Source: Fibrobacteria bacterium AD312
GTDB lineage: Bacteria; Fibrobacterota; Fibrobacteria; Fibrobacterales; Fibrobacteraceae
NCBI GenBank assembly: GCA_001462345.1
Contig: LIUM01000005.1
Location: 1 to 64,000 of the forward strand
Direction of reading: 5' to 3'
DNA length: 64,000 nucleotides
The position numbers and the translations under genes are program-made. Positions 5,277 through 26,656 of the stretch are shown one piece after another. Below the pieces are notes generated by a model. The model searched no databases. It saw only the letters and a list, made by a program, of their open reading frames with translations, and had not been told where the DNA came from. Numbering within the stretch: position 1 is the stretch's first letter; every line of letters begins with the position of its first letter.

Positions 5277-6968
5277 ATGAAACTATCTCGTTTTTTCTAC
5301 ACCACCTTACGTGAAACACCTAGCGAAGCCACCATGGCTAGCCACATCTTTTTAATGCGCGGGGGCTACATTAAGCCTCTTTCTACAGGAATTTACAGTA
5401 TTTTGCCCATTGGACACCGAGTGATGAAAAAAATTGAAAACATCATTCGAGAAGAAATGAATCGAATTGGCGGTCTAGAATTAGACCTTCCTATTGTCCA
5501 GACGGCAGAACTTTGGAGTGAATCTGGGCGTTATAATGCCATTGGAGAAGAACTCTTACGATTTAAAGATCGTAACAATCATAACATGGTTTTAGCGATG
5601 ACCCATGAAGAGGCCGTCACCGATGCTAGCCGCTATGTATTATCAAGCTACAAGCAACTTCCTTTTATGCTTTATCAATTCAAAACAAAGTATAGAGATG
5701 AAGCGAGAGCCCGTGGTGGTTTGATTCGTGTTCGTGAATTTCTAATGAAAGATGCCTATAGTTTTCACGCCACACAAGCAGACCTTGATGTCCATTATGA
5801 AGAACAATATCAAGCTTACTTACGCATTTTCCGTCGAGTAGGAATTGAACCTGTTGTTGTGCAATCCGATACTGGTATAATGGGTGGTAAATTAGCACAC
5901 GAATTTATGCTAGATACCCCTAATGGAGAAGATTATCTCATTCTCTGTAAGAAATGTGGTTATCAAGCAAATCGTGAAATTGCCAAGTTTAATAGATATC
6001 CTTATACAAATAACGCAGAAGCCGCTTTAGAAAAGGTCGCCACGCCAAATAAAGAAAGTATTGAAGAAGTCTCTTCCTTTTTACAAGTGCCTCCAGAAGC
6101 CACCGCCAAATGCGTGTTTTTTGATGTCGAAGGCAAGCTTGTGACCGTTTTAGTTCCTGGTCATCTTGAAGTTTCAGAAATTAAACTCCGTAACATTTTA
6201 AAAACAAAAGAGCTTATTCCTGCAGATGAAACCTTAATCAAATCATGCGGCATGGAACCTGGTTTTGCAAGCCCTATTGGAGCAAAAAATACAAGAGTCC
6301 TAATTGATCTCGCTCTAGAAAATGCTAACGATCTAGTCGTTGGAGCAAATGAAAAAGGCTTCCATTTTATGCATAGTAATCCTAAGCGCGACTTCTCCAA
6401 CTATGAAGTATTAGACCTCGCCGAAGCAAGCGCTCTCTGCCATTGCCCTAATTGCGATGAGATGCTAACAGAAACTCGCGGCATTGAACTTGGTAATATT
6501 TTTAAGCTCGGTACCAAATTTTCCGAAAGCATGAAAGCCACCTTCTTAAACCCTGAAGGTCAAAGCGAACCTGCTGTAATGGGATGTTACGGCATTGGAG
6601 TCGGGCGTTTAATGGCCAGTGTCGTTGAAAATTCTCATGATGATTTTGGCCCCATCTGGCCTAAAAGCATTGCCCCTTTCCAAGTGGAAATCGTCTCTAT
6701 TGGTAAAGAAGCCAATGTCATCGAAGCCGCAGATAAACTCGAAAAAGAACTGACATCGCTTGGTTTTGATGTATTGTTAGATGATCGAGAAGAAAGACCT
6801 GGAGTCAAATTTAAAGATGCTGATCTTTGGGGAATTCCAGTAAGAATTGCTATTGGCAAAAAAGGTCTTGACCAAGGGCAAGTCGAATGGAAACTTCGCT
6901 CCGAAAAGAACTTTGAGATGGTCGATTTAGATCAAATCACTGAAAAGCTTCGACTATTTTATAATTAA
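5277..6968 (+). CDS. proS: Prolyl-tRNA synthetase
   Basis: 563 residues, the usual size of bacterial-type ProRS. It charges tRNA-Pro with proline. Class II motifs are visible: motif 2 around YRDEARARGGLIRVREF (residues 139-155) and motif 3 GCYGIGVGRLMAS (about 440-452). The region between them (about 235-385) is the YbaK-like editing insertion that hydrolyses Ala-tRNA-Pro. The C-terminus is an anticodon-binding domain with DDREERPGVKFKDADL. It is divergent from the lipoprotein-mnmG operon across a 129-bp AT-rich gap and ends in a good terminator, so it looks monocistronic. Confidence 0.97.
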   Translation: MKLSRFFYTTLRETPSEATMASHIFLMRGGYIKPLSTGIYSILPIGHRVMKKIENIIREEMNRIGGLELDLPIVQTAELWSESGRYNAIGEELLRFKDRNNHNMVLAMTHEEAVTDASRYVLSSYKQLPFMLYQFKTKYRDEARARGGLIRVREFLMKDAYSFHATQADLDVHYEEQYQAYLRIFRRVGIEPVVVQSDTGIMGGKLAHEFMLDTPNGEDYLILCKKCGYQANREIAKFNRYPYTNNAEAALEKVATPNKESIEEVSSFLQVPPEATAKCVFFDVEGKLVTVLVPGHLEVSEIKLRNILKTKELIPADETLIKSCGMEPGFASPIGAKNTRVLIDLALENANDLVVGANEKGFHFMHSNPKRDFSNYEVLDLAEASALCHCPNCDEMLTETRGIELGNIFKLGTKFSESMKATFLNPEGQSEPAVMGCYGIGVGRLMASVVENSHDDFGPIWPKSIAPFQVEIVSIGKEANVIEAADKLEKELTSLGFDVLLDDREERPGVKFKDADLWGIPVRIAIGKKGLDQGQVEWKLRSEKNFEMVDLDQITEKLRLFYN

Positions 6969-17297: not shown

Positions 17298-17630
17298 TTA
17301 ACGAAGCTTACGTAAAGCACCACGCAAAAGGTTTTTTACCTGTCTATCTGTTGGAGGAGGAGGGGCATTTTCATTTCGCTTGTCTTTTGGAGCACATTCT
17401 GGACAGAGGTGTTTTACCACTGAACCAAAGCTTGCGGCACCGTCCGTCCGATCCGTTTGACGAAAACGATAGGATTTTACCATGGCTTCTTTTTTGCATT
17501 TATCGCAAATTCCTGAGACTGGTTCTGAAGAATGATGGCCTTTTTTTTCTTTCTTTTTTTCTACGGAATCCATTTCCCAAGCCCGACTCATTGCTGCATT
17601 TTTTGCTGAAAATCGTTCAAAATCACTCAT
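17298..17630 (-). CDS. Small zinc-ribbon-like protein, unknown function
   Basis: 110 residues. Start at 17630 chosen because AAGGAGATATC precedes the ATG, an excellent ribosome site, and the ATG overlaps the upstream stop as ATGA. Two CxxC pairs, Cys42/Cys45 (ICDKCKKE) and Cys76/Cys79 (HLCPECAP), would bind one zinc ion. The C-terminal 20 residues are basic, with LLRGALRKLR, and a proline run (PPPP) precedes them. I do not recognise the family; nucleic-acid or protein binding is possible. Third gene of the operon starting at 18757. Confidence 0.8.
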   Translation of the reverse strand: MSDFERFSAKNAAMSRAWEMDSVEKKKEKKGHHSSEPVSGICDKCKKEAMVKSYRFRQTDRTDGAASFGSVVKHLCPECAPKDKRNENAPPPPTDRQVKNLLRGALRKLR

Positions 17631-18208
17631 GATATCTCCTTGATTTCTTTTAGTATTCGTTCTTGTAAAAATAAGCCGAGCAACATATGACATAAGGAAG
17701 TCGCACGAGAGTCTTCACTATATAGACGCCTTGCAAACTTCCCTTTTTGTAATTGAGTTTCTTTAAATTGTGCTGCCCTATCTGCAAAATCGAGCACAGT
17801 GATTCTAGGGTGAGAAATCGTCTTTAATAACTGATTCCACTCCGTCACTTGCAGAATTTCTTCCTTAAACGCCTCTTCGGGCAAAGTCACTAAGTTTAAG
17901 TGCGCCTTTGTTTTAGAAAGTAATTCTTCTAAAAAAACCTGGTATGTCTTAAAAATAACAGAAGCCTTTTGATGTAAGCGCAATTCTCTTAAACCAAGGC
18001 CTAAAACGATTCGCCCTGCCTGTTTTCCAATAATATCAGAAGGAGCTCGTTGTAACAAGGATTCTAAAGGAATTAAGACTGGCCCTGGAAGGACAAACTG
18101 CACCGATAAATCTGAAGCTAAACAAAGCAATAACTCTGAAAAATGAGAAGCGACCTCGCCATTATCACCAAAAAAGTCATCCGCTATTACTAGTATTCTG
18201 TTTTCCAC
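17627..18208 (-). CDS. Hypothetical protein, weakly SGNH-hydrolase-like
   Basis: 193 residues with GTG start (GTGGAAAAC). The sequence opens with ILVIADDFFGDNGEVASHFSE and has GRIVLGLGLRELRLHQ near residue 85, an order faintly like blocks I and III of SGNH/GDSL hydrolases, but the catalytic Ser and the DxxH end are not visible. No signal peptide or membrane segment. If the fold is right, activity is probably lost or altered. It lies between the TusA-domain gene (9-bp gap) and the zinc-ribbon gene (4-nt overlap), so all three are likely made together. Confidence 0.65.
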   Translation of the reverse strand: MENRILVIADDFFGDNGEVASHFSELLLCLASDLSVQFVLPGPVLIPLESLLQRAPSDIIGKQAGRIVLGLGLRELRLHQKASVIFKTYQVFLEELLSKTKAHLNLVTLPEEAFKEEILQVTEWNQLLKTISHPRITVLDFADRAAQFKETQLQKGKFARRLYSEDSRATSLCHMLLGLFLQERILKEIKEIS

Positions 18209-18217
18209 AACATTAAT

Positions 18218-18757
18218 TTACTTTGGTTCTTCTTCTTTGAGTACGTTTATTATCCAATAATCGTCTTTTTTTTCTCTTTTTTTGATAATATACCCTTCTG
18301 CGACCAGTGTTTGGGGCACATTTTGTATTGGATAACCCTCATCTAAAGCAATTTGAAGCTCACTCCCTTCTGGTAACCCAGCTAAAACCAGTTTAGCTCG
18401 AACCGCATTTCCTGGGCAAACAACACCTCTAAGATCAAGCATTTCCTTAAAATACTCGTTTTCACATCTTTTTTTATTACGCAGTGTAATACTAGAAGCT
18501 TTTTCACAAAAGTCCACAATAGAAGATGCATATTGAAGAGGATTACTCATCCAATCAAGCATCGGCACATTCAGTTCTTCTTGATAAAACAAAAAAAAGA
18601 GTGAAAAAGCCTTTTCTAACGAAAAAACAGGCTTATTTGGAAAATTTCGTCGTAAAATATCCACACAAGCATGCCCCAAAAGAGATTGCAAAGCTTTATC
18701 AAATTCGGGTAAATTTCTATTTACATGAAGCCATTTTTGTATTGGTGTTTGATTCAT
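18218..18757 (-). CDS. TusA/SirA-like domain protein with a novel N-terminal domain
   Basis: 179 residues. Residues 105-172 match the TusA fold: LDLRGVVCPGNAVRAKLVL with the sulfur-carrying Cys114, then LPEGSELQIALDEGYPIQNVPQ and a final EGYIIKK strand. TusA proteins shuttle persulfide sulfur. Residues 1-104 are a helical domain with several aromatics and Cys31, Cys84 and Cys98; I do not recognise it. Standalone TusA is about 80 residues, so this is a fusion. First gene of a three-gene operon, and divergent from the GT2 gene. Confidence 0.82.
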   Translation of the reverse strand: MNQTPIQKWLHVNRNLPEFDKALQSLLGHACVDILRRNFPNKPVFSLEKAFSLFFLFYQEELNVPMLDWMSNPLQYASSIVDFCEKASSITLRNKKRCENEYFKEMLDLRGVVCPGNAVRAKLVLAGLPEGSELQIALDEGYPIQNVPQTLVAEGYIIKKREKKDDYWIINVLKEEEPK

Positions 18758-18856
18758 AATAAAAATGAAGTGTTTTTCTTTAAAGAATGTAGCAAAGTTT
18801 AAATACCCTTTCTATATTTGGCACCCAAGCATACAAGTGCAAAAGGCTTTTTTATA

Positions 18857-20410
18857 ATGAACCAATTTTTACTGAATCTTATGTTTGTAGTTTATGTGAT
18901 CGCCGGTATCGGTCTGATTGCATATGGTTTTAACTGCTATGTCAGTATTTATCTTTTCTTAAAGAATAGTCGACGCGTTCGACTCACTGACCGTAAAAAC
19001 ATTCTTCGTTTTTATAGAGATCATTCCATGGATGATCTACCTATGGTCACCACACAACTTCCCGTTTATAACGAAGCCAACTGCGTCGAGCGCTTAATTG
19101 ATGCTGTTTGTGCTATTGATTATCCTCGTGATCGCCATGAGATTCAAGTTCTAGATGATTCCACCGATGAATGCCTCGAAGTCACTACTCGTAAAGTAAA
19201 TGAAATGAAGGCCAAAGGCTATAACATTACTTTAATTCATCGTACCAATCGCAAAGATTATAAAGCTGGTGCATTAAAAGAAGGTATGCTTGTTGCCAAG
19301 GGCAACTTCCTCGCCATTTTTGATGCTGACTTTGTTCCAGAAAAAGACTTCCTTTTGAAAACCGTTCCATACATGGTTATGGATCCAACCATCGGTCTAG
19401 TTCAAGGTCGCTGGGGACACTTAAACCGCACTGAATCTGGTTTGACCTTAGCTCAATCTATTGGTATTGACGGTCACTTTGTGATCGAACAGTCCGCTCG
19501 TAGCTGGGGTAACCTATTCATGAACTTCAACGGTACCGCAGGTATCTGGCGCAGACAAGCAATTGACGATGCTGGTGGCTGGGAAGGTGATACCCTTACA
19601 GAAGACATGGATCTTTCTTATCGCAGTCAGCTTGCTGGTTGGAAAATGAAATTCGTTTTTGATGTAATTGTCCCTGCTGAACTTCCTAACGACATCAATG
19701 CCTTTAAGGCACAACAATATCGCTGGGCTAAAGGTTCCATTCAAACAGCTAAAAAAGTTCTTCCTTTAGTAATGAAAGCAAAAGTACCTCTTCGAGTAAA
19801 GATTGGAGCTTTTATGCACACCACTCATTACTCCATCCACCCTTGCATGCTTTTCACTGCTATTTGCGCTTTCCCTCTTCTCGCTTGGTTTGAACCTATC
19901 GCTCAAGTACCAAGCTTTGTTTTCGCTATTGGCTTCGCCTTTATCTTCCTTGCAGCCATCGCTCCTTCTACCCTATATTTTGTAGCACAACGTTGCTCAG
20001 GCTATACTGGTTGGAAAGTTCGCTTACTTTCTCTACCTATTTTAATGGCTGTTGGAGTAGGTATTGCCGTCAGCAATTCACGCGCAGTCATGTCTGCTGT
20101 TTTAGGTCACAAAGGCTCTTTTGTTAGAACCCCTAAAAAAGGTCAAAAGCATTTAAGTTCTTATGCTCAAAAATTCCCAATCATTGCTTCTCTTGAATTG
20201 CTCGTTGGTGGCTATTGTATCTTTGGTTTGTTAGAATATATCGGTGCTCAGAAATTTATTATCGGCCCATTCTTAGCCCTCTATTCTATTGGCTTCCTCT
20301 CTGTAGGTGTTTTAAGTTTCATGCATTACTTCACTAACTTACTCGAAGTACATCGCGATAAAAAAGCACAAGCCCAAAACATTGAGATCCAGCCAGAAGT
20401 CCCTGTCTAA
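18857..20410 (+). CDS. Processive family 2 glycosyltransferase (cellulose synthase-like)
   Basis: 517 residues, starting at ATG 18857 (MNQFLLNLM), which directly begins the first membrane helix; an in-frame TTG at 18818 is less likely. The cytosolic GT-A domain has TTQLPVYNEANCVERLIDAV, VLDDSTDE, FDADF (metal-binding DxD type), TEDMD (base) and QQYRW, the Q(Q/R)xRW motif of processive beta-glycan synthases. About four membrane segments follow. The layout resembles CslA-type glucomannan and related synthases. The product cannot be told; an exopolysaccharide or envelope glucan is likely. Codon choice is cleaner than in neighbours, suggesting high expression. Terminator follows. Confidence 0.9.
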   Translation: MNQFLLNLMFVVYVIAGIGLIAYGFNCYVSIYLFLKNSRRVRLTDRKNILRFYRDHSMDDLPMVTTQLPVYNEANCVERLIDAVCAIDYPRDRHEIQVLDDSTDECLEVTTRKVNEMKAKGYNITLIHRTNRKDYKAGALKEGMLVAKGNFLAIFDADFVPEKDFLLKTVPYMVMDPTIGLVQGRWGHLNRTESGLTLAQSIGIDGHFVIEQSARSWGNLFMNFNGTAGIWRRQAIDDAGGWEGDTLTEDMDLSYRSQLAGWKMKFVFDVIVPAELPNDINAFKAQQYRWAKGSIQTAKKVLPLVMKAKVPLRVKIGAFMHTTHYSIHPCMLFTAICAFPLLAWFEPIAQVPSFVFAIGFAFIFLAAIAPSTLYFVAQRCSGYTGWKVRLLSLPILMAVGVGIAVSNSRAVMSAVLGHKGSFVRTPKKGQKHLSSYAQKFPIIASLELLVGGYCIFGLLEYIGAQKFIIGPFLALYSIGFLSVGVLSFMHYFTNLLEVHRDKKAQAQNIEIQPEVPV

Positions 20411-20431: not shown

Positions 20432-20704
20432 CTAAAAGCGGCATCGATATGCCGCTTTTATTTTATTCTCTTTTTGTAACTGGATTTCTTTATCTGTATA
20501 AAACAGAAAACATTTTGATCTAAGTCGTTGTTCTATTTGCATTACTTGAAGAGCATATTCTAAATCCTTAATTTGTCTATTATAAAATGAAAAAGACGTA
20601 CGATGCATTTGAGAAAAAAAAGAAAGACAAATGGAAAGAGAAATACCTGTAAGGATAACGCCAACGCATAATTCAATTAAAGTAAATCCTTTTTTTATTG
20701 ACAT
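20432..20704 (-). CDS. Minor pseudopilin with class III signal
   Basis: 90 residues. The N-terminus KKGFTLIELCVGVIL has the prepilin-peptidase site (cut before Phe, with Glu at +5) and then a hydrophobic helix. The rest (about 60 residues) is short for a pilin and basic at the end. The start overlaps the preceding pseudopilin gene by 10 nt. The last nine codons run through the terminator hairpin of the opposing GT2 gene. Likely a GspH/J or PilV/W-like minor pseudopilin of the same machine. Confidence 0.78.
   Translation of the reverse strand: MSIKKGFTLIELCVGVILTGISLSICLSFFSQMHRTSFSFYNRQIKDLEYALQVMQIEQRLRSKCFLFYTDKEIQLQKENKIKAAYRCRF
20434..20459 (+). terminator. Rho-independent terminator of the GT2 gene
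   Basis: An 11-bp stem AAAAGCGGCAT/ATGCCGCTTTT with a 4-nt loop, followed on the plus strand by a T-rich tract. It lies inside the 3' end of the opposing pseudopilin gene. Confidence 0.88.
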
Positions 20705-21045
20705 GGCAGAACCCTCTCTAACTGAGATAAAAGCTGTTTATGTTCTTTAGATAATACTTGAACACGAATAAATAGCAAAGGCACATTTTCTTTTATTCTA
20801 GTGCTACTCCATTCCATTTCACCCCAAGAACGAATAGGCGAGCGAACAACTTCCTCAATACAAGAAGGAGGATAATCCATTTTTATTTCTATTAAACTAG
20901 CGGCTTCGCGAAACGCTTCTAAGCGTTTTTTTTCAAAAGAACGAATCTCTCTATAACCATCTAAAAACAGGAAGAGGGATGTAGATAAAACACCTAGAAG
21001 AATAAGGCTTACAAGCACTTCAATCAAAGAAAATCCCTTGTTCAT
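20695..21045 (-). CDS. Minor pseudopilin (GspI/PilV-like)
   Basis: 116 residues. Start at 21045 (MNKGFSLIEV), because this ATG overlaps the upstream stop as ATGA; an in-frame ATG at 21057 lies inside that gene. The KGFSLIEVLVSLILLGVL class III signal and hydrophobic helix are typical of type IV pilins and type II pseudopilins. The soluble part has two Cys (near IDYPPSCIEEV and the final LPCQ), possibly a disulfide. Sixth gene of the operon. Confidence 0.82.
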   Translation of the reverse strand: MNKGFSLIEVLVSLILLGVLSTSLFLFLDGYREIRSFEKKRLEAFREAASLIEIKMDYPPSCIEEVVRSPIRSWGEMEWSSTRIKENVPLLFIRVQVLSKEHKQLLSQLERVLPCQ

Positions 21046-21896
21046 TTTATGGCCCAAGAAAAAATACGTAATGGGTTTTGGTTAGCAAGATCTATTGGTA
21101 AAAAGAGAGAGTCTTGACTTTCGATTGTTCTCGCTGCATTAGACCAAAAAGGAATACCAAAAGTTTTTTCGCTCACCAAAACGGTATCTTCACTTAGAAA
21201 AACACCACGAGCCTCCACTGGATCTGAGATTTCTATTGTACCGCGTGCATAAAGACTCGCCTCATTTATTTTTATTAGACCAGAAAGCGAAATAGATCCT
21301 GTTGAAAACAAGTGCAAAGAATCAATTATTCCCTCTCCCTCAATTAGAACATTCCCTTCCACATAAAACGCTATTTTTGAAAATCGATTTTTTTGCAAAT
21401 CTATTTTTAAGTCCCCAAGAGCCACATAAAATGTTCCTAAAAAATCATCCTTTTTGGGATTATAAAAATAGGTGTTTCCATACAAAGTGTCTTTATAGGA
21501 TTCACTCTGCCAACGTTCTTGATAATACAAGAGACACCTTGACTCTGCTTGTAATAAGTCCTGATGTGAAAAAGGTGGATTGTTTTTTGAAGTATAAAAA
21601 CCTGCATAGGCAAACACTTCTCGCTCCCCTGCTTGTGTTTTTAGAACAAGCCATGGGCCCAATGTATCTGTTAAAACATTAGGAAATGAATTTTTAGAAT
21701 TAGAAAAACGTACATGATAAAGCTTTAATAAAATGGCGGACTCGGCATTATATTGCACTTGCAATCGAGATTCAAAATGAGTCACCCGCGAAAGGAGCGC
21801 CCCAGTGGAATGAAGAAGAGCAGAGAAAATAAACGTTAATGCTAAAAAAAGCAACCATACGAGTGGTAGAATCGCGCCCTTTTTATTCTTATTCAT
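21042..21896 (-). CDS. PilX/GspK-like protein with a possible beta-solenoid domain
   Basis: 284 residues. The first 60 residues look like the PilX N-terminal segment: KKGAILPLVWLLFLALTFIF then a helix with YNAESAILL. From about residue 150 there are short repeated beta-strand units (NVLIEGEGIIDSLHLFSTG, then ISLSGLIKINEASLYARG and IEISDPVEARGVFLSED), a spacing seen in right-handed beta-solenoids such as bactofilins. It is coupled by ATGA overlaps to genes on both sides. A role as pilus or pseudopilus tip/assembly component is inferred. Confidence 0.68.
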   Translation of the reverse strand: MNKNKKGAILPLVWLLFLALTFIFSALLHSTGALLSRVTHFESRLQVQYNAESAILLKLYHVRFSNSKNSFPNVLTDTLGPWLVLKTQAGEREVFAYAGFYTSKNNPPFSHQDLLQAESRCLLYYQERWQSESYKDTLYGNTYFYNPKKDDFLGTFYVALGDLKIDLQKNRFSKIAFYVEGNVLIEGEGIIDSLHLFSTGSISLSGLIKINEASLYARGTIEISDPVEARGVFLSEDTVLVSEKTFGIPFWSNAARTIESQDSLFLPIDLANQNPLRIFSWAIK

Positions 21897-22777
21897 AAAG
21901 ACCTTGATACCGTATCTTTTTCACAACTCAATAATACTCGATTCGTTTCAATTTTATGGACACGATAATCTCCAATAAAATCACCTACTTTATAAATCGT
22001 TTTATTTCCAGTCCCTTGAAGATGAAAAACGCGCCCTGCAATAGCCCCCTTGATTTGAAATGAAGGCAAAAGACAACGAGGTTTTTTCTTTTTTAACATA
22101 GGAGAAACTTTTTTTTCAGAGTCAAAGGGATTTCCTTTCAAGCGAAGACTTTCTCGTTTAAGAGCATTCAGTTCGTGTGCGTTTCGTTCGTTTATGTTTC
22201 GCTCGTCTGCATTTTGCTGGTGTGCGTTTCGCTCAAAAGCGGAGATTAATTTCCCTAACTTATCCTTGACTTCAAACTCTTGTATTTTTTGAGAGCTAGA
22301 CTCCGTTGTATTTTGATTCATTCGCCGTAAGCACACTTGATTTAAGAAATAAACGTTCGGTTTCGATGATTTCACTAATTCAAATTGTTTGAAAAACCAA
22401 TCAGGTGCCTTTTTCCCTATTGTTTGAATAAATGAAAAAATGGAATAGAAATCTCCTTCGACTTGAAACCGATATTCATTGCCATTCGACTCCACTTGAA
22501 AATGGTGTAAAACTACAGAAGCGCCTAATGCGAATGACACTAAAGAATCAGGAGAAAATGGATTGGTATGATATTTTTCTTTCCATGGTTTCCATGAGAG
22601 CATTAAAGAATCCCATAAGGGTTTATAAACATCCATCTCTTTTTGAACAGATCTTATTTTTTTTCTTTCTAGCCCATTTTGAATGGTTGGGTATAAAAAA
22701 TAATAGGAGCCAAAGAGAGTTATAACCCCTAGTATTAAAAAGCAAATCACCACCTTTTGTTTTTGGCTTAATTTCAT
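21893..22777 (-). CDS. Fused PilO/GspM-like and PilP/GspC-like inner-membrane protein
   Basis: 294 residues. A membrane helix at about 8-28 (VVICFLILGVITLFGSYYFL) is followed by a PilO/GspM-like region with a coiled segment and FQVEGDFYSIFSFIQTIGK, a pattern typical of PilO. A repetitive linker (about 180-206; see the tandem repeat) joins a C-terminal domain, GAIAGRVFHLQGTGNKTIYK then VGDFIGDYRVHKI, which fits the homology region of PilP/GspC that contacts the secretin. Such a fusion would bridge inner platform and secretin in one chain. Stop and start overlap neighbours by 4 nt. Confidence 0.68.
   Translation of the reverse strand: MKLSQKQKVVICFLILGVITLFGSYYFLYPTIQNGLERKKIRSVQKEMDVYKPLWDSLMLSWKPWKEKYHTNPFSPDSLVSFALGASVVLHHFQVESNGNEYRFQVEGDFYSIFSFIQTIGKKAPDWFFKQFELVKSSKPNVYFLNQVCLRRMNQNTTESSSQKIQEFEVKDKLGKLISAFERNAHQQNADERNINERNAHELNALKRESLRLKGNPFDSEKKVSPMLKKKKPRCLLPSFQIKGAIAGRVFHLQGTGNKTIYKVGDFIGDYRVHKIETNRVLLSCEKDTVSRSL
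22160..22234 (-). repeat. 15-bp tandem repeat within the PilO/PilP-like gene
   Basis: Five imperfect 15-bp units (22160, 22175, 22190, 22205, 22220) encode five-residue repeats such as ERNAH, QQNAD, ERNIN, ERNAH and ELNAL. The period keeps the reading frame. It makes a flexible, polar, probably helical linker between two domains. Confidence 0.85.
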
Positions 22778-23871
22778 AAAAACAGATCCATTTGAAAACT
22801 GACTCTTCCTTCTGTATTCGATTGAACAGAGCCCACTATTATTTTTTTGATTTTAAAAAATCGACTGTTTTTTAGTTCTCGCTCTAATTTGGAGGACTCC
22901 TCAAAATGAATTGCAGAAAAGCTTAAAACAAAATGGAGCCCCTCTTCTGAAGGAATTTTCTTTAAGGACAAAAGCCTTGTTCCTTTTCCAGAAGCAGTTA
23001 CAATCTCATTGATGAGAAGATCTAAATCTAAAGGAGTAGGCATACTTAATATTTGATTTTGAAATTCTAATATTTTTTCTCGAAGAGAATCCTGCTGAAT
23101 CTGTTCTTGCACTTGCCTTGCTAAAAAGCTTTCTTTTGAAGAAAAAAGAAACTGATTTAAGAAAAAGATTCCCGTCCATAAAATGAAGACCAAAATAAAC
23201 GCATAAAGGAAACGCCTCTGCAATCGTTTCCATGCACGTTCCTTAAGCTCTATAGAAGGATCTAAATCCCAATGACGCCAAAAAGGATCTAACAAAGCCT
23301 TCTCAAATAAACTGGACACAGCCGATTCAGAAACAATAGAGACAGGAGGGTCTCCTAAGCGTGAAAGAAAAGCATCTCCTTGAATAAAAAGCCTAAGTCG
23401 ATGTAGCCTTTGATTTAGATCTATTGTTTTTTCTTCTACTTGTTCTTGAATCCAATGCACTAATTTCCCTTCACAGAAAATCAATAAAAACAAATGACCT
23501 TTTAAGTAACCACCACATATTAAATTTTCAAACCCTTCTTTTTTTAACATTTCTTCTTCTGCGTAGGCGGTAAAAGCAATCGCCAAAGGTAAGACTCGAT
23601 CACAAAAAGGGCGATCGATAGAAAAGTCTTTTAATGAAAAGGCGACAAGAAAACGATGCGTTCGGCCCATGGAACTATTAAAAGAAATTAAAGGCAAAAA
23701 AGAAATCCGATGATGGACTCGCTCACAAGAAAGAGGCAATTCTTTTTTTATATGATTTACAATCATTGCCTCGTGGGGTTCTTCGCCAAAGGGCGTTTGC
23801 ATTTCTAAAGTAAGAGTAAAACAATCTGAAACTCCTTGGATGATTTCTTTTCCTTTTTTGACTAAAATCAT
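22774..23871 (-). CDS. GspL/PilM-PilN-like assembly protein
   Basis: 365 residues. A cytoplasmic region (1-215) without obvious motifs, one membrane helix at about 220-240 (FLYAFILVFILWTGIFFLNQ), and a periplasmic part with a coiled coil followed by a ferredoxin-like PilN/GspL segment (TRLLSLKKIPSEEGLHFVL). This is the layout of GspL, which in type IV pili is split into PilM and PilN. The actin-like ATP motifs of PilM are not evident. It follows the secretin gene with a 4-nt overlap. Confidence 0.65.
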   Translation of the reverse strand: MILVKKGKEIIQGVSDCFTLTLEMQTPFGEEPHEAMIVNHIKKELPLSCERVHHRISFLPLISFNSSMGRTHRFLVAFSLKDFSIDRPFCDRVLPLAIAFTAYAEEEMLKKEGFENLICGGYLKGHLFLLIFCEGKLVHWIQEQVEEKTIDLNQRLHRLRLFIQGDAFLSRLGDPPVSIVSESAVSSLFEKALLDPFWRHWDLDPSIELKERAWKRLQRRFLYAFILVFILWTGIFFLNQFLFSSKESFLARQVQEQIQQDSLREKILEFQNQILSMPTPLDLDLLINEIVTASGKGTRLLSLKKIPSEEGLHFVLSFSAIHFEESSKLERELKNSRFFKIKKIIVGSVQSNTEGRVSFQMDLFL

Positions 23872-25601
23872 TTTGCCGCCTTGGATTTGTTTTTACGAAT
23901 CAAACGTGGTGTAATAAAAACGGCAAGCTCCATAGTATAATCTTCATTGGTATGGTAACTAAACCATTTTCCAACCCAAGGGAGGCTCCCTAAAAAAGGA
24001 ATCGCAGAACGAACTTTAGCAGATGTTTTTCGAATTAGCCCACCTAGACAAAACGTTTCCCCTTCTTTTAAAGAAACGGTTGTTTTTAAGTTTCTTGTAC
24101 TAATATCTCTTGGCCCTTCTCCAGAACTTCTAGCCGATGTTTTAATCTCAGGAATAATTTCTATGGTAATTTCTCCACTTCGAGCTACAGAAGGTGTAAT
24201 TTCTAGGCTGACGCCTTCATTAAAAGATCTATAATCCGTTATAGGAAAACCATCTGCAGAGACTTGACTCACCATATAGTAAGTGGTATTCGTCACGTTA
24301 ATGCTTGCTTTATTTCCATTTAAGGTGCTAATACTTGGCCTTGCTAAAATTTCGGCTTGATTATTTTCTTCAAGAGCCGCCAATTCAAAATCAAATTGGT
24401 CTGAAAGAAGCCCTATTTCACCAAATCCCCTGCCCCAAAAACGACTTTTGTCCGAAATACGAATAAAACTATTTATGCCTAGCCCTCCTTCGCTTGTCTT
24501 TTTTGCCGATCCAGAGCGAAAACCAAATTCAAATTGTTTCCCCTTATTAAATTCAACGATGATGCATTCCAGTAATACCTGTAACGTTTCTACATCTATT
24601 TTTTTTAAGAAATGAGATGCCGATTCTATTTCTGTAGAAGCTCCCATCAACAGCAATGCATTTTGTTCTTTCACTTCTAAAATGCGAAGCCCTCGATCTT
24701 GATACGCCTTGGTAAGTAATAGAAGTGCTTTCTCAGAATGAATATGTTCTAGATAATACAATGAATTCGCTGCAATGGCCGAAGGAGCTCCCCGTTCTCC
24801 GACTAAAATAGTGCCCAGAGAATCAAAAGTATAAGTGTAGCGACTCCCTTGAAAAAGCATTTTCAATAACGCATTCAAAGGTAGAGAATCCGCTTTAAGA
24901 TACACGTTTTCACGAAGCTCTCCATAGACCGCTAAATTCAAATGAGCGAGCGTAGCCATCTCATTCAAAACGTTTTTAAGAGACGCCGCCTCCAAATCCA
25001 CAAAAAATAAAGAATCTCTATAAGCAAGTTCCACAATAGAAGATGATTCTTCTTTTGGTTGCTTTTCTTCTTCTACAAAAAAGCAATCTGGCCCAGAACG
25101 CACTCGAAAACCATGGGCTTTCATTAAAGAAACTAACGCAGAATGCGCAGGAAGACCTTGTAAACGCCCACTAATTTTCACTTTAATTTTTGGATCAATT
25201 AAGATGTTCAAATTGGTATTCGCAGCATATTCTTTAATAAACTCTTGAATCTCTTTATTTTGAACATCGATAAAAACAAGACCGTCTTTGGAATAAAACC
25301 GATTCTCTCCTCGTTCTATTTTTTTTCGAATTCGATATAGAGCCCCTTCTTGAATCACTTCAAGCCCATTGGCATTTGCAATCGCCGAAAGCCCTTCAAA
25401 AAGGCCAACGCTATCTAAATGAACCGTTATGTTTGCCGAGATATTTTGATCGACAAGAATCGCCATATCATAGGCCGCAGAGATCGTCCGCACCACCTCT
25501 TTGATATCTGTGTTTACAAAATCAAGAGAAAGCTTAGGAGCCAAAGCATTAGCTAAAGCAACACCCCAAAAGAATAAGAAAAAGAAAGACCGGCTGAACA
25601 T
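23868..25601 (-). CDS. Secretin (GspD/PilQ family)
   Basis: 577 residues. Start at 25601 (MFSRSFFF) supported by GGAGG 4 nt upstream; signal peptide ends near ANALA. N-terminal STN/N0-like domains contain LDFVNTDIKEVVRTISAAYD and a second similar segment FIDVQNKEIQEFIKEYA. The secretin core ends with the classical block SLKEGETFCLGGLIRKTSAKV and IPFLGSLPWVGKWF. It would form the outer-membrane ring. No pilotin gene or S-domain is obvious. It heads the run of coupled genes down to 20432. Confidence 0.92.
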   Translation of the reverse strand: MFSRSFFFLFFWGVALANALAPKLSLDFVNTDIKEVVRTISAAYDMAILVDQNISANITVHLDSVGLFEGLSAIANANGLEVIQEGALYRIRKKIERGENRFYSKDGLVFIDVQNKEIQEFIKEYAANTNLNILIDPKIKVKISGRLQGLPAHSALVSLMKAHGFRVRSGPDCFFVEEEKQPKEESSSIVELAYRDSLFFVDLEAASLKNVLNEMATLAHLNLAVYGELRENVYLKADSLPLNALLKMLFQGSRYTYTFDSLGTILVGERGAPSAIAANSLYYLEHIHSEKALLLLTKAYQDRGLRILEVKEQNALLLMGASTEIESASHFLKKIDVETLQVLLECIIVEFNKGKQFEFGFRSGSAKKTSEGGLGINSFIRISDKSRFWGRGFGEIGLLSDQFDFELAALEENNQAEILARPSISTLNGNKASINVTNTTYYMVSQVSADGFPITDYRSFNEGVSLEITPSVARSGEITIEIIPEIKTSARSSGEGPRDISTRNLKTTVSLKEGETFCLGGLIRKTSAKVRSAIPFLGSLPWVGKWFSYHTNEDYTMELAVFITPRLIRKNKSKAAK

Positions 25602-25661: not shown

Positions 25662-25685
25662 AAAAAAACCAGCTCTTAAAGCTGG
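25662..25685 (-). terminator. Terminator between the secreted-protein gene and the secretin gene
   Basis: CCAGCT/AGCTGG stem (25669-25674 with 25680-25685), followed on the minus strand by seven T residues. It lies 60 bp upstream of the secretin start, so it may end or attenuate the transcript of the preceding gene. Confidence 0.8.
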
Positions 25686-25723: not shown

Positions 25724-26656
25724 TTAATCTTGGACAAAAATACGATGCCAAGAGCCTTTTTCAATAGAAATAAAGTAAACTCCAGCAGAAACGGGAACAT
25801 TTCCAGAAACGGAGGTTCCATTCAAAAGCCTTAAACTAGGTACTTCCCCTTTAGGGCCACGAATTAAAACACCCCCATGAGTCCTCTGCATAGAAAACGA
25901 TGGCCGTTGATTTGGAGTGGACTCGATTATACGAATAGGAGGGTCTTCTACAATTAGTTTTTCTTCTGCTAATACGAATTTTAACATTTGACGATAAATC
26001 ACTTTATTATTTGTCTCAGCCAAGGCTCCTATTGCTCCCGTAGCTGATTCTAAAGAATCGACATTCCTAGACATCCCTAACCAATAACGAAAACCTCCTC
26101 CATCAACAGTATCCACAACATAAGCGATGGTAAGCCAACTTGAGGCCCTCATTTCTGGGGTCACAGATAAGAGAATATCCGTTTGATTCACAGGGTCATT
26201 CGCGCTCCAATCCTCAAAACGATATTGAATCCAGTTATAAGAATTGGCTGAATCATATACATCAAAAAGAGATTCGTGAATATCATAAATTTGAGTCACA
26301 CAAGAGGTATCTTTTGCCGCCCATTTTTTGGCGTTCGCATCATAAAATGCAATAGAACAGGCATTGTTAGATTTTAAGCATTGGGATTCAATAGAAACAG
26401 GAATAGTTAAATTCGAAAAACTATTACCTCCTCTAATAAGAGAAAGATCCTCAATGGAACGATAGAAATGAGAGTTTATCTGATTATCATTTTCGAATCT
26501 AAAATCATAAATGGTATCCAGACTAATCTTCATTGTTCTTTCTTCTGTCGTTTCACCAATACGAAGAGTATCGCATAGGTTTCGAATATTATCAGGAGCT
26601 TCTTGTGCCATAAGAGAAGCAGCAAAAAGCAAAGTGAAAAAGATTATTGTATGCAT
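25724..26656 (-). CDS. Secreted protein with type IX-like C-terminal sorting tail
   Basis: 310 residues. Signal peptide MHTIIFFTLLFAASLMAQ. The middle has Asp/Ser-rich beta regions and three to four Cys (SQCLKSNNACSIAFYD, DTSCVTQIYD). The last 60 residues (MQRTHGGVLIRGPKGEVPSL, then PVSAGVYFISIEKGS) match the sorting tail of type IX secretion substrates. Function unknown; an outer-surface protein is inferred. It stands between its own promoter and a terminator, upstream of the secretin operon. GAGGG precedes the ATG. Confidence 0.75.
   Translation of the reverse strand: MHTIIFFTLLFAASLMAQEAPDNIRNLCDTLRIGETTEERTMKISLDTIYDFRFENDNQINSHFYRSIEDLSLIRGGNSFSNLTIPVSIESQCLKSNNACSIAFYDANAKKWAAKDTSCVTQIYDIHESLFDVYDSANSYNWIQYRFEDWSANDPVNQTDILLSVTPEMRASSWLTIAYVVDTVDGGGFRYWLGMSRNVDSLESATGAIGALAETNNKVIYRQMLKFVLAEEKLIVEDPPIRIIESTPNQRPSFSMQRTHGGVLIRGPKGEVPSLRLLNGTSVSGNVPVSAGVYFISIEKGSWHRIFVQD

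Follow-up and report, generated by a model that had tools for sequence, protein, structure and literature searches.

The minus-strand operon at 25601-20432 of a 64,000-nt stretch of Fibrobacteria bacterium AD312 DNA (the whole stretch analyzed, here called the window) probably (at roughly 70%) encodes the envelope-spanning part of a machine resembling a type II secretion system (T2SS), with the assembly ATPase GspE encoded apart and with a platform, pilin, and prepilin peptidase that would be borrowed. It consists of six genes, encoding GspD, GspL, a GspM-GspC fusion, a GspK/PilX-like protein, and two minor pseudopilins (Table 1). The GspM-GspC fusion operon is a real, conserved, and new variant of the T2SS.

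Table 1. Genes of the operon and the hairpins at its borders (positions in the window)
Feature	Position	Strand	Remarks
GspD-like secretin, 577 aa, signal peptide	23868-25601	-	Start ATG 25601, SD GGAGG upstream
GspL-like bitopic protein, 365 aa	22774-23871	-	PilM/actin-like cytoplasmic domain, TM, ferredoxin-like periplasmic domain
GspM-GspC fusion, 294 aa	21893-22777	-	TM, GspM/PilO ferredoxin-like domain, linker, GspC HR-like beta domain
GspK/PilX-like, 284 aa	21042-21896	-	Prepilin-like N-terminus without Glu5, beta-repeat C-terminus
GspI/ComGE-like minor pseudopilin	20695-21045	-	ATG 21045 (ORF list: TTG 21057); N_methyl PF07963 1.4e-7
GspJ-like minor pseudopilin, 90 aa	20432-20704	-	N_methyl 6.5e-4; ComGF/GspG models ~1e-6
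Terminator-like hairpin, operon end	20433-20460	+ (site)	Overlaps the last codons of J; suits the convergent plus-strand gene
Hairpin upstream of gspD, after the gene at 25724-26656	25669-25685		T run after the hairpin on the minus strand

The genes are as tightly coupled as the original prediction held: the junctions, read directly, show 4-nt ATGA overlaps at D/L, L/MC, MC/K, and K/I (the last counted with gene I from ATG 21045, not TTG 21057) and a 10-nt overlap at I/J. A fixed ratio of the products does not follow from such overlaps; in known systems the copy numbers of secretins and minor pseudopilins are widely unequal. Terminator-like hairpins flank the operon on both sides. The identical six-gene order recurs in L008 and L009, of the same kind as the window (the L009 sequence starts part-way through gspD), and in L095, from another genus. 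Pairwise dN/dS between the window and L008 is 0.11 to 0.30 in all six genes, which together with the recurring order argues that the operon is not a chance arrangement. Within the family it is present in 53 of 66 genomes, with one stop in three of the listed copies. Directly upstream of gspD, at 25724-26656 (minus strand), lies a gene for a secreted-looking 310-aa protein that holds the same place in L008 and L095, has no Pfam match, and has a C-terminus that, judged by eye, is like a T9SS-type sorting tail. A TusA-domain protein and a 193-aa protein (17627-18757, minus strand) are neighbors of the operon across the family, and a convergent glycosyltransferase gene (18818-20410) stays with this pair beside it.

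Domain and fold matches place the operon among T2SS and type IV pilus (T4P) relatives, as had been predicted. GspD has a secretin domain (PF00263, 3.8e-39) and a GspD-type N0 domain (PF21305, 1.8e-15) and scores alike with PilQ and GspD models (~1e-55). A longer gspD reading frame from TTG 25652 was a mechanical call, and the ATG preceded by GGAGG is preferred. The 365-aa product had zero matches in a Pfam search and a weak profile match with outgroup GspL (0.026). The N-terminal half of its AlphaFold model resembles PilM (5eou, E 1.7e-6) and the C-terminal part resembles the periplasmic domain of EpsL (2w7v, TM 0.71 by target), with a transmembrane segment in the same chain. These fold matches correspond to the standard layout of GspL and rule out a fusion here; of the two fused proteins predicted, the 294-aa one (21893-22777) is a true fusion, while the 365-aa one is an ordinary bitopic GspL.

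That the 294-aa protein combines a PilO/GspM-like and a PilP/GspC-like domain agrees with both profile and fold matches. Its AlphaFold model, of modest confidence (pLDDT 57, below 50 in the HR part), matched PulM (7ze0, TMt 0.72), EpsM (1uv7, 0.77), and PilO (2rjz) in Foldseek, with E-values of which the best is 6.8e-3 and none passes 0.001. By profile, the M part matches the PilO-family M of outgroups (E 1e-5) and the C part matches outgroup GspC (E 6e-5). The GspC part is assigned on weaker evidence, the GspC model matching the small beta domain of the fusion weakly (0.0018). The linker between the two domains contains an imperfect 15-bp repeat in about four copies (22173-22234), which L008 and L009 lack. 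The GspK/PilX-like protein had no match in a Pfam search and is identified by its place in the conserved order and because its profile matches K genes of outgroups (E 2.4e-5). The GspK-like proteins of outgroups (as at L112:11483-12853) show weak bactofilin or ice-binding-like matches, unlike standard GspK.

No gene for GspE, GspF, GspG, or a peptidase occurs in the operon or its neighborhood, in line with the original prediction. Where, then, are the missing parts? The genome encodes three secretins, namely the window GspD, that of a second T2SS-like operon on C4 (L015:11139-18558), and, within a type IV pilus locus (C41), PilQ. Of its three assembly-type ATPases, one is on C4, one is the PilB at C41, and the third is a lone GspE from a further contig (C9:4585-5934). 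In outgroups, GspE adjoins GspD of this operon's type. In the GspE tree, the family's lone GspEs group in a single clade (100/100) that is sister (99/95) to the GspD-adjacent GspE of G093 and stands apart from C4-type GspE and from PilB, which rules out a motor shared with the pilus. Among 66 family genomes, 50 have both GspD and a lone GspE, 3 have GspD only, none has GspE only, and 13 have neither (Fisher p 2.7e-11, with kinship not corrected and counts that are not phylogenetically independent), so that a lone GspE accompanies 50 of the 53 operons and occurs in 0 of the 13 other genomes. Outgroup adjacency, the tree, and this co-occurrence therefore indicate that the motor gene left the operon. 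On such sequence evidence, the lone GspE is a dedicated motor that belongs to the operon by descent, and it replaces the shared motor that had been proposed.

The three genomes with GspD only form one clade (0.996). Search misses were ruled out with a closer query; two of the three are only 89% complete. Residues E17, N55, G59, R60, and H126 of GspL (numbering of the L098 protein) are changed only in these GspE-less genomes and are kept in 31 to 33 of 33 other proteins. Since the cytoplasmic domain of GspL binds GspE in known systems (PMC11981180), their loss fits the loss of the GspE partner. The coupled GspL change in this clade is a single evolutionary event.

The search of the rest of the genome recovered the motor, and found GspF only as the PilC of the pilus and no GspG. 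The platform family (PF00482) is represented by one protein in the genome, beside pilT on C22, and 64 of the 66 family genomes gave exactly two domain matches, equal to one protein; several of these genomes are in 9 to 20 contigs and ~100% complete. No GspG (PF08334) is found in the window's own genome, and only 2 of 121 genomes of the phylum have one. The genome has one prepilin peptidase, unlinked to the operon, and nine prepilins: two of major type (C25) and three minor ones of T4P type (C5), with each T2SS-like operon contributing two more. The reduced nature of the machine is upheld, with no dedicated GspF or GspG found. A platform shared with the type IV pilus would be the simplest and likeliest account of these counts; the peptidase also looks shared, and perhaps the major pilin, which could stand in for GspG. 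In a deeper relative (G002), C4-type T2SS operons (L140, L141, and L142) carry their own GspF and pilins, and a loss of GspF is likely because of this. No report of a GspF common to a T2SS and a pilus was found in the literature searched, which does not prove its absence.

Comparison with relatives places the operon in a series of reductions. The outgroup order is E-D-L-M-C-K-I-J, with PilN, PilO, and weak T2SSC matches, and outgroups such as G038 have separate L (418 aa, PilN match), M (190 aa, PilO match), and C (165 aa) genes. G093 has L followed by a fused M-C (296 aa), with GspE still adjacent. The window, L008, L009, G009, and G027 have L followed by a fused M-C (256 to 294 aa), with GspE elsewhere. 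In a large sister genus (g2), probably Fibrobacter proper, the operon comprises D, a single 339- to 439-aa protein, K, I, and J. This single protein resembles GspL over the cytoplasmic domain only (E 3e-36) and M-C over the HR domain only (E 2.5e-13), making it a GspL-GspC chimera, which is present in all 30 g2 genomes read; the operon no longer includes GspM or the periplasmic domain of GspL. Searching PDB sequences with profiles of the chimera and of M-C gave nothing useful. A single in-frame deletion that starts after the GspL transmembrane segment and stops short of the HR domain would produce such a chimera. We infer that the window operon is an intermediate between separate L, M, and C genes and the L-C chimera, passing through L plus M-C. 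We found no report of a GspL-GspC or GspM-GspC fusion in the literature searched, and absence is not proven thereby.

How might such a machine work? The cytoplasmic domain of GspL would hold the hexameric ATPase GspE encoded on C9, and GspM-GspC would couple GspL to the secretin through contact of the GspC HR domain with the N0 domain of GspD; binding of GspC HR to GspD is known from other systems (PMC3169554). GspE would drive, through the platform, a short pseudopilus capped by K, I, and J, and substrate would be pushed out through GspD. Lacking its own GspF and GspG, the machine most likely uses PilC of the pilus locus, a major pilin of the pilus, and the single prepilin peptidase. Growth of Fibrobacter succinogenes S85 on cellulose goes with higher expression of genes annotated as type II secretion (PMC4668043). 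Many cellulases of F. succinogenes have been proposed to bear T9SS signals (PMC6851124), so cellulases need not be the substrates. More tentatively, and with the odds slightly against it, the filament machines of the Fibrobacter family (the type IV pilus and two T2SS-like systems, three at most) may keep separate ATPases and secretins but run on one PilC and one pool of pilins, with L, M, and C collapsed in g2 into a chimera that would tie motor to secretin 1:1 and make GspM and the ferredoxin-like domains dispensable.

A different reading takes the operon for a module of the type IV pilus serving adhesion or DNA uptake, with a second secretin, an alignment complex, and a minor-pilin tip, exporting a surface filament. 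The seemingly borrowed pilin and platform, the equal scores of the secretin with PilQ and GspD models, and the implication of pilins in adhesion of Fibrobacter to cellulose (PMC3079729, PMC6851124) would suit it. We nevertheless hold it to be unlikely, because the secretin has a GspD-type N0 domain and GspL unites in a single bitopic chain what T4aP divide between PilM and PilN, because no retraction ATPase is linked (the PilT-type genes lie at C22 and C26), and because a PilM-to-PilQ locus exists elsewhere in the genome. The original prediction was to fall if separate PilN/O/P proteins turned up with a normal operon; this is half the case, since a standard PilM/N/O set with PilQ exists apart from the operon, at C41, though it belongs to the type IV pilus, another system.

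It is also rather improbable that the machine has a platform and major pseudopilin of its own elsewhere, either hidden in an assembly gap or diverged beyond the reach of PF00482 and PF08334. The searches were profile based only, and in a genome that is 99.3% complete but in 50 contigs such genes could escape; however, a single PilC recurs in nearly every family genome, including the near-complete ones in few contigs, and all nine prepilins of the own genome are accounted for. Nor is the operon at all likely to be a decaying, functionless T2SS remnant. The missing GspF and GspG, the fusions and domain losses, the short pseudopilins, and the three relatives without a lone GspE could be read as decay, but against this stand the wide distribution of the operon with few interrupted copies, its conserved order and low dN/dS in every gene, the conservation of the chimera in 30 genomes, and the response to cellulose of the genes annotated as type II secretion in S85 (PMC4668043).

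The T2SS-like reading, with a dedicated motor and a borrowed platform, bears on two matters. How many copies of GspC accompany each GspL (6 or 12), and how a six-fold platform fits a 15-fold secretin, are open questions (PMC11981180). The g2 chimera has the GspE-binding half of GspL and the GspD-binding half of GspC in one chain, which would fix their ratio at 1:1, and a natural chimera of this kind would reveal which domains are dispensable to the link between motor and secretin. Furthermore, the generic model used to search for this superfamily (PMC6668835) requires an ATPase together with a platform and a major pilin, and systems like the window operon are therefore likely to be missed or misfiled. 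One platform for three ATPases, if true, would change how such systems are detected.

Compared with the T2SSs of Klebsiella (Pul), Xanthomonas (Xps), and Vibrio (Eps), the operon has the same GspD with N0, bitopic GspL, GspM and GspC domains, K/I/J-like pseudopilins, and GspE paralogue. It differs in the fusion of M with C (and, in the sister genus, in an L-C chimera without M), in a GspE encoded apart, and in having no dedicated GspF, GspG, or GspH. With the PilMNOPQ system of T4aP, also present in this genome at C41, it shares a secretin, an alignment complex of PilM/N/O/P type, and minor pilins, but its PilM-like and PilN-like parts lie in one protein, as in GspL, its GspE clade is distinct from PilB, and it has no linked retraction ATPase. 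The second T2SS-like operon, on C4, has an E-D-L-M-C-K-I-J content and likewise no GspF or GspG, whereas its GspE is adjacent, its M and C are unfused, and its secretin is only 28% identical to the window GspD. The chlamydial T2SS has been described without GspL, GspM, and minor pilins (PMC6668835) and is similarly a reduced system with an incomplete L/M set, but its losses are others and a GspL-GspC chimera has not been reported for it.

Two further observations concern pilus-related genes of the same genome. An adjacent PilT-like pair (L015:3971-5581 and 5593-6597), in the first member of which Arg replaces the Lys of Walker A, has weak tandem relatives in G051, G099, and G094. In the pilus locus, a 616-aa protein encoded between PilO and the secretin (L016:12721-14571) has an SH3 match only; it is PilP-like by position, and its N-terminal part may derive from PilQ.
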